From positions 40,143 through 77,742 of the forward strand of contig MEPR01000044.1 of assembly GCA_001769835.1 (NCBI GenBank): DNA of 37,600 nt, in the 5' to 3' direction. The notes beneath the pieces were generated by a model. It worked only from the letters and a program-made list of their open reading frames with translations, was not told the origin of the DNA and made no database searches. The translations under genes and the position numbers were made by a program. Source of the DNA: Bdellovibrionales bacterium GWB1_55_8 (GTDB lineage: Bacteria > Bdellovibrionota > UBA1018). Position 1 is the stretch's first letter, and each line of letters starts with the position of its first letter. Shown here piece by piece: positions 2,885 through 7,843 of the stretch.

Positions 2885-4042
2885 CTACTGATTATCTCCT
2901 GGATAGGTATTCAGGAAATCCTCCCAGACCGAACGATCATGAAGCGCGGTATCGAACTGACCCTCGTTGCCGGCGGAATAGGGATTACTCTGGGCCGTGA
3001 AATTATCCACTCGGTCCCAGGAACGCACCAGGAGGCGAATTCGCGCGACATATTCCCAGGCAGAATTCAAGCAACCGAACTGATAAAAAGGCTTCAGCAG
3101 CGCAGTGGGCTTGACACCGGCTGCCTGCGGAAACGTAGAACCGACTCCACCAAAGCTAGTCGGATTAAAATAATTCGCCACATAAACAGTGCTCGCCATG
3201 TCTTTCTCAATTGACGATGGAATCTCAAAGAGCCCGTTCACGCCCTCCACTTCAGCCTTGGTAAGCAGATCACGCGGATAACCGGACTTGGCATCCTTCG
3301 GAAAAATATCCAAAGTTCCAGGGCCGTTCAAACAAGCGGAGCGCTTTCCACCGAGAGACGTCGAAGCGCCGGGCTGGGACACGGGAGCAGGAATCACAGT
3401 CGTGTCGGGTGTAGCAGGGTCGTCATCGTGATCGCCCGTTACGGGTGAAAAGGTATAGGTCGAATCGATCGTAACCAGTCCTTCACAGCAATTAGGCCCG
3501 CTGTCGGAGGTATAATCGTACGTACACGTCAATGCATTCGTACTCACGTCCAGACTCACTGCCGCATTATCGGATGACGCTGCTGTCAAAGATCCATCCA
3601 AATAGGTAGCGCTGATCGTGACATCAAGACCTGGGGGTGATGGCTCGTAAGCGTAATAGGAATAACCCACAAGCTCTGTATATTTGCACATGCCGGGCGG
3701 CGCGTTGTAATTCAGGCCGAATTTGTTGTAATAAAGATCGAGCTCAGCCACATCGAGAATGCAGAAGATGTCTGTCTTCGCGGCTACGGTTTCGCCTTGA
3801 ATGACCTTACACGGGTTGTTTTCAAAGGCGCTCTGCTCATGAAAGTAATAATCGACCCCGTCAGCTACAATAGCGTCCACATAAAACCCGCCAGTGGGAT
3901 TAACCACCCCAATTTCCTTCGGGGGGTCAGCTTGAGGTTCAGGCGATATCTCGGCGGCAGGCTTACAAGACGCAAACGCTACCAGGATGCCAGCCAGGGC
4001 AGCCGACCGTAAACCAAAACATCTGTTATGAATACGCAACAT
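2885..4042 (-). CDS. Cysteine-rich lipoprotein of unknown function
   Basis: A 385-residue protein with a basic start, a hydrophobic run and the lipobox FASC (lipidated Cys26) followed by KPAAEISPEPQADPP, a flexible proline-rich linker. The mature part has about nine further cysteines, including a CC pair in PNCCEG, and Asp/Thr-rich beta-like stretches. This suggests a disulphide-stabilised, surface-exposed or periplasmic protein. I recognise no catalytic motif. The start is well supported: GGAGGAG lies just upstream of ATG 4042. It stands alone on the minus strand, with a 222-bp gap before the tRNA gene. Confidence 0.75.
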   Translation of the reverse strand: MLRIHNRCFGLRSAALAGILVAFASCKPAAEISPEPQADPPKEIGVVNPTGGFYVDAIVADGVDYYFHEQSAFENNPCKVIQGETVAAKTDIFCILDVAELDLYYNKFGLNYNAPPGMCKYTELVGYSYYAYEPSPPGLDVTISATYLDGSLTAASSDNAAVSLDVSTNALTCTYDYTSDSGPNCCEGLVTIDSTYTFSPVTGDHDDDPATPDTTVIPAPVSQPGASTSLGGKRSACLNGPGTLDIFPKDAKSGYPRDLLTKAEVEGVNGLFEIPSSIEKDMASTVYVANYFNPTSFGGVGSTFPQAAGVKPTALLKPFYQFGCLNSAWEYVARIRLLVRSWDRVDNFTAQSNPYSAGNEGQFDTALHDRSVWEDFLNTYPGDNQ

Positions 4043-4621: not shown

Positions 4622-5053
4622 CTAGGGAATCTTTTTAATCCGCACAAGGCCGCGCCGCTCCAGAGTGCGTGCTGTTTCGACCAGCTTCAACTGGGCTCCG
4701 GCGATTTCACGCGGGCCGACTGCCACTTCTAAATACTCTTTTATCTCCGCCCTGACTCGAGGCTGTGAATTCAGGAGGAGTCTCGTTTTCTGGTCCTCTG
4801 ACACCTCATGAAACGCAAAGGCGGTGGTCCGCGGCGGCGCAAGAGCCGCCACTTCCGCAAGCTGGAGATCCGGCAGCTCCACAATGTCCTCAAACGTCAT
4901 TACGTACTGGAGTGCTTTTTCCGTGTACTCCGCGTCCTCCTGCATGCCCACATCGATCATCTTCTGACGGCGCGAGAGCGGCGTGGACTCCAGCAGCTCC
5001 ACCAATGCGCGGAACCCTTCAGGCGAACGCTTGAAACGGGCATAGACGCTCAC
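4622..5053 (-). CDS. FliG-like protein consisting only of middle/C-terminal-type domain
   Basis: A 143-residue protein whose second half resembles the C-terminal domain of the flagellar rotor protein FliG: FEDIVELPD (residues about 53-61), then AFAFHEVSEDQKTRLLL, RAEIKEYLE, VGPREIAGAQLKLVETAR and LERRGLVRI, in the same order and spacing as FliG's FEDL, ALKG, LREDL, GP and I..ARRL segments. The first 50 residues resemble the end of the FliG middle domain. The N-terminal domain that binds FliF is absent. It starts with GTG overlapping the TGA of the upstream RDD gene (GTGA), so it is translationally coupled to a membrane protein. It could be a torque-interface decoy, a motor modulator or a domain reused elsewhere. 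No other flagellar gene is present here. Confidence 0.7.
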   Translation of the reverse strand: MSVYARFKRSPEGFRALVELLESTPLSRRQKMIDVGMQEDAEYTEKALQYVMTFEDIVELPDLQLAEVAALAPPRTTAFAFHEVSEDQKTRLLLNSQPRVRAEIKEYLEVAVGPREIAGAQLKLVETARTLERRGLVRIKKIP

Positions 5054-5660: not shown

Positions 5661-6452
5661 ATGTCATTCATTCGTAACCCGTTTCTGATCGTCTGTGGAT
5701 TGAGCCTGCTCTCATTTTCTGCTGAGTCAGCAGGACCGCTGAAACCCGAAGACTACGAGAAAGCATTGCAAATCGCTCAGAGGAAAGTGCAGCGAGAGCG
5801 CTCTCTCATGCAGTCCGGCGCGCTCTCCGCGTCTCCTGCGAGTCGCCTCTTCGGCAGATTCTACGAAGAGGGAGACACATGGGACGTCGCAGTCTGGCGC
5901 CTGCAACCAACGCAGATGCGCCGAACCTCGGAACCGCACCACCTGAGTCACCCGGTTCGTGCACCACTGCTTTTCCGCTATAAGGTGATCGAGGTGAAAA
6001 CAGGGAGCGCTGCCCGCGTCGTGATTCAGGTTAAAGAATTAAACAGCGTAAGGGCGGATGCTTCCATTGAATTTCTCCGGATTGAACTTACCGGGCAGCT
6101 TCTGCAGAGCAGAAAAAGTTATAAATTCCTAGCTCATGATGCCCCTGTGCCAGTAGCACCGGATGGCATCCGGTCCGCGATGACCGAATTGGAAATGCTG
6201 CCTCTCGACTTCCCGAACGTTCTCACGGCGGAGCAGCGCGAGCCCTCCGCGCTTCCAAGACTCCCCGAGGATATTGCAAAGGCAGCCCTTGAATTCGGTT
6301 ACCAGCCGGATCTCTCAAAAACTGTCTGGCTGGAACAGGATGATTTCTTCGGCAGACCCGTGCAGGCGCTCTGGCAGCATGGCGAACCATGGCCGAGCTA
6401 TTTGAGGACCTCTCACGGCATCGCGATCCTGATCCATCGGGGGAACTCATGA
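5661..6452 (+). CDS. Exported protein of unknown function
   Basis: A 263-residue protein with a signal peptide (MSFIRNPFLIVCGLSLLSFS, cleavage probably near SAESAG around residue 24). The mature part has an alpha-helical beginning rich in Lys/Arg/Gln followed by beta-rich sequence (DTWDVAVWRL, LLFRYKVIEV, ARVVIQVKEL, IEFLRIELTGQLL). I recognise no family or active-site motif. The start was set at ATG 5661 because GGGAGGA lies directly upstream; the frame extends to 5631 without a ribosome site. Its stop codon overlaps the start of the transglutaminase-like gene (ATGA), so the two proteins are probably made together. Confidence 0.75.
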   Translation: MSFIRNPFLIVCGLSLLSFSAESAGPLKPEDYEKALQIAQRKVQRERSLMQSGALSASPASRLFGRFYEEGDTWDVAVWRLQPTQMRRTSEPHHLSHPVRAPLLFRYKVIEVKTGSAARVVIQVKELNSVRADASIEFLRIELTGQLLQSRKSYKFLAHDAPVPVAPDGIRSAMTELEMLPLDFPNVLTAEQREPSALPRLPEDIAKAALEFGYQPDLSKTVWLEQDDFFGRPVQALWQHGEPWPSYLRTSHGIAILIHRGNS

Positions 6453-7843
6453 AAATCAAGACGCGGTCGTCAGGCATAATCGCAGCAGTCACCGTCATCG
6501 CAAGCCTCAGTGCCACTCTCCTGGTGCTGAACTCATGCGGAAAACCGGCCGGGCTGGACGATGACGAAGCAGGAACCGAGAGCCCCGTTCCTTATCCGGG
6601 CATTCATGGACAAGAGTTCAGCGGCGAGAAAAATTTTGCTCGCCTGATCAATTCCAATCTTGAAAGCAAGGCGAGTCCGCAACCGTGGGCCGGATTCTGG
6701 TGGCCGTATGCCTCAAACGGCATCGCCTCTGGAACCTACGGTGGGTCCAGTCCTGCCGGTAAATACGATGCTGCGCGCGGCGGACAGACCAACGCACAGA
6801 TGTGGGAAGTGAAAAACCACGGTTCAAAAGTGCCAAAACTTCAGGGCTGGTGGGGGCACTGCAACGGCTGGACTGCTGCGGCCGGGTTGTTTGCGGAGCC
6901 TCGAGAATCAGCCCGGGTGAATGGGATCACGTTTGAGGTCGCTGATATCAAGGCTCTGCTCACGGAAGCCGCGATGGAAGTGAATGCCGATTTCTTTGGC
7001 GAGCGTGTGGACTGGGGTCACGATTATTCTCTGCCGAAATTCGGAGATACCGTTGCCGATCAGTTCTTTCTCGTCCTGACAAACTACATGGGTCGTCTCA
7101 AAAAAGCCGTACTCATGGACCGCTACACCGGCGACCAGGTCTGGAATCATCCGATAGTCGCCTACCGGTTCGAGTATCCAAAACCGGCTGACTATCTGGG
7201 CGCCTCGCCCACCGCTCCAGGGGTCTTCCGGATCCTTCTGACCGGCTCGATCTGGTGGGCTCGCGACGACGTGACACCAGGAACTCTTACCGCTCCTTTC
7301 AATCACGAAGTGACTGACCATTTCGATTCACGAGAACTGAAGATGGAAATCTGGGTGGACGCGCCTGTGACGTTCGATGCCAATGGCAAGGTCCAGTCCA
7401 GCGGGGATGTCATCGTATCCCGGGAAGGGGATTATTTTGCCGGTGGCGCCTGGCGCATGGGAGAAGGGTATTACAACGACGCCTGGCCGGATTACATGTG
7501 GGTCCCCTACTCTGTGACGAAGCCCACGGATTACGCCAACGTGGATGTCGATATCGAATGGATCCGAAAACATTTACTTGTTCCAGGCGGCTTGGACGAT
7601 CCGACGGCCAGCCCGCGTCCGGTGAACCCTGCGCCATCACCTCAGCCGACCCCCTCCACCTTCCCGTCGGGATGGCCGACAAACTGGCCGCTTCCGCCAT
7701 CAAATCCGGATCCAGAGCCCACAAATCCCTGGCCGAGACCGACAAGAACGGTGACCCCGATCCCGGTTCCGACCGGCACAACGATTCCCGCGCCCCGTCC
7801 CAGGCCCGACCCTGATGATCCGCTCCCACCTCCGCGGCGTTAG
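6449..7843 (+). CDS. Lipoprotein of the transglutaminase-elicitor (oomycete GP42/Pep-13) family
   Basis: A 464-residue protein. Residues 1-30 form a lipoprotein signal ending LVLNSC (Cys30). The core carries LQGWWGHCNGW (131-141), in which Cys138 is the likely nucleophile of a papain/transglutaminase-like fold. VWNHPIVAYRFEY (231-243) matches the Pep-13 fragment of the Phytophthora cell-wall transglutaminase GP42 (VWNQPVRGFKVYE) at most positions. Members of this family crosslink proteins through Gln and Lys. The last 80 residues are a proline-rich tail (SPRPVNPAPSPQP, ending PPPRR), perhaps spanning peptidoglycan or binding another surface protein. ATG 6449 is supported by GGGGGAA upstream and a 4-bp overlap with the preceding stop. 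The final codon overlaps the convergent methyltransferase gene. The family call is confident; activity and substrate are inferred. Confidence 0.8.
   Translation: MKIKTRSSGIIAAVTVIASLSATLLVLNSCGKPAGLDDDEAGTESPVPYPGIHGQEFSGEKNFARLINSNLESKASPQPWAGFWWPYASNGIASGTYGGSSPAGKYDAARGGQTNAQMWEVKNHGSKVPKLQGWWGHCNGWTAAAGLFAEPRESARVNGITFEVADIKALLTEAAMEVNADFFGERVDWGHDYSLPKFGDTVADQFFLVLTNYMGRLKKAVLMDRYTGDQVWNHPIVAYRFEYPKPADYLGASPTAPGVFRILLTGSIWWARDDVTPGTLTAPFNHEVTDHFDSRELKMEIWVDAPVTFDANGKVQSSGDVIVSREGDYFAGGAWRMGEGYYNDAWPDYMWVPYSVTKPTDYANVDVDIEWIRKHLLVPGGLDDPTASPRPVNPAPSPQPTPSTFPSGWPTNWPLPPSNPDPEPTNPWPRPTRTVTPIPVPTGTTIPAPRPRPDPDDPLPPPRR

Follow-up and report, generated by a model that had tools for sequence, protein, structure and literature searches.

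The window (the whole 37,600-nucleotide stretch of DNA analyzed here, from a 3.78 Mb source genome in 96 contigs) carries a pair of overlapping genes that, on balance, probably specify one exported, membrane-anchored two-component thiol acyltransferase: the second gene encodes an enzyme of the PF16683 (GP42-type) family and the first a partner, which would act as its chaperone or inhibitor in trans. The observed basis of this mechanism comprises the family of the enzyme, the position of its nucleophile, the residues of its active-site class, the linkage of the two genes, their fusions and the exchange of the lipobox between the subunits. PF16683 proteins fall into two classes, HC (His before Cys) and CH (His after Cys), and the less expected part of the finding is the HC class with its dedicated partner.

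The gene pair and its genomic context

The partner gene (5661..6452, forward strand) codes for a protein of 263 amino acids without a Pfam family, showing a signal peptide recognized by eye, a predicted LolA-like half-barrel and a C-terminal DDFFGRPxxxxWxxGxPWP motif. The enzyme gene (6449..7843, forward strand) codes for 464 amino acids and was identified by profile, PDB and fold matches; both this reading frame and the location of Cys138 in WWGHCNGW are exactly as claimed in the original prediction. The junction (6439..6452, forward strand), read directly from the sequence, consists of a GGGGGA ribosome-binding-like site at 6439-6444 followed by an ATGA overlap at 6449-6452, in which the partner stop TGA (6450-6452) overlaps the enzyme ATG (6449-6451): an arrangement that bears out the translational coupling proposed earlier for the two genes. 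The genes flanking the pair, one for an RDD protein upstream on the opposite strand and a convergent methyltransferase gene downstream, look unrelated to it.

The catalytic subunit is a GP42-type protein

The enzyme matches PF16683 (TGase_elicitor) at E 1.3e-18 (67.3 bits against a gathering cut-off of 25) and the GP42 chain 3TW5 at 2.4e-10 with phmmer, and a profile of its orthologs retrieves 3TW5 from the PDB at 5.6e-27 as the sole match up to E 1. These profile matches exclude a chance resemblance and place the protein in the transglutaminase-elicitor family, as had been predicted, on grounds reaching well beyond the short motifs. Its AlphaFold2 model (mean pLDDT 79.1, pTM 0.74, with the tail mostly disordered) recovers 3TW5 with a Foldseek E-value of 1.3e-14 and superimposes on that crystal structure with Z 25.1 and an rmsd of 3.0 over 278 residues (model residues 52-381 onto chain residues 168-528), the next structural match being the papain-like peptidase Mac-1 at Z 6.9. 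Hence, the catalytic subunit is predicted by this model to adopt the GP42/papain-like fold, in agreement with the earlier suggestion.

Cys138 aligns with the Ser of 3TW5, which we take to be the C290S mutant of GP42, and with the Cys of L218, a close GP42 relative. It thus occupies the nucleophile position that had been assigned to it, and in the model the helix 137-147 begins in its vicinity, as expected of a papain-like nucleophile.

The original prediction had also drawn attention to a stretch resembling the Pep-13 elicitor of GP42 in most positions. This stretch, VWNHPIVAYRFEY, is located at residues 231-243 (bases 7139-7177) and the resemblance is real, but only 4 of the 13 positions are identical by hand count, with a further 4 conservative, so that "most positions" applies only when conservative changes are included and the match is weak taken alone. 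In many orthologs the segment reads VWNQPLAGYRF, and a predicted strand (233-241) falls within it; Asp224 and this Pep-13-like strand with its conserved Asn233 lie at 7118..7177 (forward strand). The Pep-13 segment here is a conserved core strand with no sign of plant interaction, and the context gives no reason to expect elicitation of plant immunity by the window protein.

The window enzyme resembles GP42 of Phytophthora sojae (3TW5; PF16683) in its predicted fold, nucleophile Cys and Pep-13 strand, and probably in its conserved Asp and Asn, but differs from it in having a His before the Cys, His124, Glu173, a lipobox-like site, a proline-rich tail and a partner encoded by a separate gene. 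Protein crosslinking by this putative enzyme is plausible.

Two active-site classes in PF16683

According to the portion of PMC10318531 that deals with GP42, this protein has no His at the canonical place; instead, its His directly follows the Cys, and its interaction partner is either an Asn of strand 2 or an Asp located on a helix outside the core. In the window enzyme, Asn139 follows the Cys and His137 precedes it (His137-Cys138-Asn139; 6857..6865, forward strand, from the alignment and lying at the start of the model helix 137-147). Of the Cys-His-Asp site anticipated near Cys138, therefore, a His adjacent to the Cys is indeed present, but its arrangement is not that of GP42. Further positions of note emerge from the alignment: a WExxxH signature at residues 119-124 (Glu120 and His124; 6803..6820), Asp166, common to both classes, together with Glu173 on one predicted helix (6944..6967), and WPD at residues 346-348 (7484..7492), which is HPD in most relatives, all on the forward strand.

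This alignment comprised 139 distinct relatives and the window enzyme, of which four rows were dropped (the two halves of the split L076 gene, the L084 fragment, and L174, which repeats L218 in truncated form). The 136 rows kept divide into 84 of the HC class, defined by His137, 42 of the CH class, defined by His at position 139, and 10 that are neither. The HC rows are marked by a set of near-invariant residues, namely E120 (83/84), H124 (81/84), H137 (84/84), N139 (84/84) and E173 (83/84), whereas H137, N139, H124 and E173 each occur in none of the 42 CH rows: there, I, L, Y or V occupies position 137, the usual residue at position 124 is Tyr, and position 173 is in most cases L or Y. E120 does occur in 13 of the 42 CH rows and is thus enriched in, but not exclusive to, the HC class. 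Other residues unite the two: Asp224 and Asn233 are each present in 42/42 CH rows and in 80/84 and 81/84 HC rows, respectively, and Asp166 is conserved in both classes. As the model places Asp166 on a helix and Asn233 on a strand, these may be the Asp and the Asn described for GP42. His137 or His124 would take over the role of the GP42 His.

The composition of the alignment bears on these frequencies. Loci L094-L173 (the best 80 of 207) were found with seeds including GHCNGW, so the HC frequencies derived from them are biased; however, in the 27 HC rows found without the GHCNGW seed, E120, H124, N139 and E173 are each present in 27/27. Most of the CH rows are from 40 stretches picked among the better-scoring PF16683 matches listed. 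On a quick tree of the 136 rows, computed with columns 124, 137 and 139 left out and columns 120 and 173 kept, a single change suffices to separate HC from CH; inclusion of the "other" rows gives 7 changes among the three states.

The CH-class proteins of the phylum (e.g. L218, from genome G260) share with the window enzyme the Pfam family, Asp166, Asp224 and Asn233, but have a GP42-like C-H motif and lack a detectable partner in all 42 rows. L218 itself (L218:357-3962, G260:C42) is a 1201-residue protein with matches to collagenase-type accessory domains; the match of its GP42 domain to 3TW5 (E 1.8e-83) covers almost the entire chain, and against PF16683 it scores 345 bits, the next among the matches listed scoring 166 bits. 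Its gene is thus a candidate for the bacterial sister of that in oomycetes. The genome of the window encodes three further PF16683 proteins, L058, L059 and L060 (G000 contigs C58, C79 and C9), in which neither neighbor of the Cys is a His (R-C-D, I-C-E and K-C-I) and with no partner detected beside them.

We also considered the His of the HPD motif as a universal catalytic base; this was rejected, since it is replaced across both classes, by Trp (7), Asn (6), Arg (3) or Pro (2) in the 84 HC rows and by Arg, Gln or Tyr in 12 of the 42 CH rows. The 7 rows with WPD instead of HPD all belong to the clade of the window. Together with a partner-linked relative in genome G159 that is devoid of the GHCN motif, these might be taken to mean that catalysis is feeble or lost in this clade and that a structural role is what remains. 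We consider this unlikely: C138, H137, H124, E120, E173, D224 and N233 are all retained in the clade, and the His of GP42, going by the part of the literature cited above for it, sits elsewhere than HPD.

The distinct placement of the His beside the Cys raises another prospect, that the enzyme is a papain-like peptidase, amidase or deamidase built on the same fold and not a transglutaminase, as the structural matches next after GP42 are papain-like peptidases, Mac-1 among them. To this we accord a real, if minority, chance: GP42 far outscores every other structure (Z 25.1, the next being 6.9), and the enzyme retains the Pep-13 strand as well as Asp166, Asp224 and Asn233.

A dedicated partner gene accompanies many HC-class enzymes

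Among the 24 window-clade loci readable upstream (the window and 23 others, with L084, at a contig end, set aside), the partner is present in 21, encoded directly upstream of the enzyme in 19 and fused to it in two, and in 12 of the 19 the two genes overlap by exactly 4 bases. Each of the three loci without it (L074, L075 and L081) is a second copy, the genome concerned carrying a paired one as well; in one such case (G030) the enzyme of the pair is broken into two ORFs (L076). In a survey of 290 genomes of the phylum using a partner profile made from the window and Halobacteriovorax types only (A5; E 1e-4), matches were recovered in 30 genomes. In 29 of these the partner lies directly 5' of, or is fused to, a PF16683-type gene, the one in G169 being cut by a contig end. 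The thirtieth, G159, has an overlapping downstream ORF with segments that look enzyme-like by eye; at a threshold of 1e-3 the enzyme profile does not match it, and the GHCN motif is absent. This locus (L228:1898-4047, G159:C40) might thus encode a dead subunit that has kept its partner. As to whether the upstream gene is always the neighbor of the enzyme, it nearly is: it lies upstream of the enzyme or is fused to it in 21/24 window-clade loci and, from the side of the partner, adjoins the enzyme or a degenerate relative in 30/30 genomes, but 3/24 window-clade loci are without it.

Viewed from the side of the enzyme, a profile match at E 1e-30 or better was recorded in 36 genomes; 28 of them have the partner and 8 lack it, though G022, among these 8, is cut at a contig end. 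With partner labels entered on the tree by locus, the partner is detected with 56 of 82 HC rows (the 84 minus 2 cut by contig ends), 0 of 42 CH rows and 0 of 10 other rows. These counts treat as lacking the partner L185 (CH), which has a contig end upstream, L170 (HC), with only 314 upstream bases, and L162 and L168, whose upstream ORFs show a similar end motif by eye and no partner profile match. Thus, the upstream gene is a dedicated partner of the enzyme, but one not needed by all, given the 3/24 window-clade enzymes, 26/82 HC rows and 8/36 genomes in which it was not detected.

Several loci depart from the simple pair. Next to its pair, G021 has an additional divergent copy of the partner, and such a copy adjoins a complete pair at L111:3806-4576. 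At L077:4694-7754, one partner precedes two enzymes in tandem whose ends overlap. L164 (Syntrophomonadaceae) shows a possible reversed order of the two genes, with a weak match (E 6e-4) to the Riflebacteria-type partner profile at 6402-7022 directly downstream of an HC enzyme.

Partner types, fusions and predicted fold

Three partner types are discernible, namely A1 (window), A4 (Halobacteriovorax) and A3 (Riflebacteria). Profile A1 matches A4 at 97.6% (E 3.9e-12) and A3, more moderately, at 84.9% (E 6.5e-6). The A3-A4 match is weak (16.7%), so the unity of the types rests on A1, the common position and the C-terminal W-G-PW motif. As labelled, their carriers are Bdellovibrionota, Riflebacteria/Ozemobacteraceae, one Muiribacteriota, Desulfosarcina and a few others; the partner family thereby accompanies the enzyme in at least three phyla as labelled. 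Relatives of the window family (L094 and L095 among them) come from metagenome genomes whose labels include Bdellovibrionales, Oligoflexia and Bacteriovoracaceae, and Halobacteriovorax marinus (G190) lies within the phylum set, its NCBI phylum being Bdellovibrionota.

Fusions of the two components were found on three occasions, always with the partner N-terminal. In L078 and L083, from two genomes of one genus, the N-terminal part matches A1 at 99.6% (E 1.8e-24), and in L149, from the complete genome of Desulfosarcina alkanivorans, it matches A3 at 95.9% (E 6.2e-9); as controls, four proteins of the window with no relation to the pair reached at most 2.8%.

Equivalents of the partner were sought at two further sites and rejected at both. 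The N-terminal extensions of CH-class enzymes (the 21 of 100-300 residues out of 43 examined) are unrelated to the partner, scoring at most 3.1% against four partner profiles; designation of the partner as a "trans prodomain" is consequently an analogy. Six N-termini of the Pseudobdellovibrionaceae type likewise gave no more than 1.8% against three profiles and do not harbor a hidden partner.

The model of the partner (pLDDT 84.8, pTM 0.78) shows a long N-terminal helix and a mainly β-strand body. Foldseek returned no matches for it at E 0.001 or below; in a second structure search, 30 of the 50 entries listed were by title LolA, LolB, RseB or MucB, with Z from 5.4 to 8.4, the top entry being a lipid transfer protein at Z 9.9. 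As best Z-scores of 7 to 8 are common with this tool, the LolA-like call for the predicted fold is of moderate strength. At the sequence level, the window partner matches no Pfam family, the best match to the LolA_like family is at E 0.093 and occurs in 2 of 21 Riflebacteria-type partners, and a PDB profile search gave three matches with a best E of 0.91. The fold search found no solved structure for the partner family, which is not evidence of a new fold. The partner may share its predicted fold with the periplasmic half-barrel proteins LolA, LolB, RseB and MucB, but differs from them in having neither an above-threshold sequence match nor a significant Foldseek match, and its C-terminal WxxGxPWP motif and linkage to the enzyme are its own.

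What might such a partner do? The earlier suggestion was that it is a substrate or chaperone of the enzyme. As a substrate, it would be crosslinked or aminated by the enzyme to build a surface layer, which would suit the co-export and tight linkage of the two and the fact that the one characterized member of the family joins Gln and Lys side chains. Among 19 aligned partners, there is no invariant Gln or Lys column: at 60% conservation or more there are only one Gln (12/19; Glu126 in the window) and Lys152 (15/19). This counts only weakly against such a role, as substrate residues need not be conserved; the N-terminal position of the partner in all three fusions, itself weak evidence, is better suited to a binding subunit. 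We hence regard the substrate half of that suggestion as unlikely, the evidence leaning to a binding partner, i.e. a chaperone or inhibitor.

Lipid anchor and proline-rich tail

A lipobox-like LNSC with Cys30 (6527..6538, forward strand) is present near the N-terminus of the window enzyme. The Cys column is invariant in 21/21 aligned window-clade proteins and a PROSITE-like lipobox pattern fits 20 of these 21; the sole exception is the window's own LNSC, which falls outside the pattern due to Asn at -2. The lipid anchor originally proposed is thus likely for the enzyme, even with its own sequence off-pattern. Its placement varies with the type of pair: in the window clade the pattern fits 20/21 enzymes and 1/19 partners, while in the Halobacteriovorax type it fits 0/7 enzymes and 6/7 partners, the seventh partner having a short n-region. 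The Riflebacteria type has as a rule no lipobox on either subunit (enzymes 0/20, partners 2/21): these pairs, going by this pattern, seem to be without a lipid anchor, and the anchor is therefore not general. If the two form a complex, a single anchor could sit on one subunit or the other.

The same distribution speaks to the idea that the partner is a LolA-like carrier delivering a lipoprotein enzyme to the outer membrane, which would be in keeping with its predicted fold and with the likely lipoprotein nature of the enzyme in the window clade. We hold this to be decidedly unlikely: the enzyme has a lipobox in neither the Halobacteriovorax type, where the partner bears it, nor the Riflebacteria type, and the partner is retained even in pairs whose enzyme would offer it no lipid cargo.

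At its other end, the window enzyme has a proline-rich tail (7577..7840, forward strand), starting after residue 376, in which residues 402-454 and 457-464 have a pLDDT under 50. At 88 residues, with 36% Pro, one Gln and no Lys, it is close to the roughly 80 residues previously estimated. Of the 21 enzymes measured, 7 extend for at most 10 residues past the domain.

A proposed mechanism and its wider implications

Taking the pair as a two-component thiol acyltransferase, we propose that the partner would be made first and exported by means of a cleavable signal peptide, as read from its sequence. Its predicted LolA-like half-barrel and conserved C-terminal WxxGxPWP hairpin may then bind the GP42-type catalytic subunit, guarding or folding it and keeping Cys138 inactive until both subunits have reached their site, in the manner of a prodomain in trans. 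Cys138 would form a thioester with a Gln side chain, helped by a His that precedes it (His137 or His124) and by Glu120, Glu173 and Asp166, in place of the Cys-His pair of GP42, and the acyl group would be handed on to an amine or water. In the window clade the lipid anchor would keep the pair at the envelope surface, and the proline-rich tail may serve as a flexible spacer.

The microbial transglutaminase of Streptomyces mobaraensis carries an N-terminal propeptide. The likeness is to a thiol acyltransferase restrained by an N-terminal segment; however, the window enzyme is of a different family and catalytic order, and its segment is mostly a separate protein. The catalytic order of the Streptomyces enzyme is given as C-D-H in the relevant part of PMC10318531.

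Extending this to the family, we tentatively advance, with less confidence than for the pair itself, that PF16683 is of ancient bacterial standing and comprises two principal types of active site: the CH design, including oomycete GP42, and the HC design. The latter would be a secreted system of two components: the catalytic His would have moved before the Cys, a LolA-like partner would act as a trans prodomain, the lipid anchor would be free to reside on either subunit, and the two components would have been repeatedly fused into one chain. If true, the second active-site design with its dedicated partner would redefine this papain-like branch, and the HC pair could yield a controllable secreted crosslinking enzyme; the pair also gives the unnamed partner family a testable role.

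A 2016 review, in the part bearing on this point, places GP42 homologs only in oomycetes and some marine Vibrio (PMC4915311). In our survey, PF16683 is over its cut-off in 162 of the 290 genomes sampled from the phylum of the window, and the presence of the family in bacteria is thus broad. Among the open-licence papers retrieved, as judged by title and the start of the abstract, none dealt with a partner protein in bacteria or with PF16683 in Bdellovibrionota; a secreted GP42-type enzyme in two parts thus seems to be undescribed in the literature searched.

An NCBIfam search gave no matches for the enzyme, the partner or a nearby lipoprotein-like ORF of 385 residues (window 2885-4042), which also matches no Pfam family. 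Elsewhere in the window are a 150-residue protein with a HYDIN/ASH-type Ig domain (2392-2844; E 2.3e-8) and a 143-residue protein resembling a stand-alone FliG C-terminal domain (4622-5053; E 1.6e-10).
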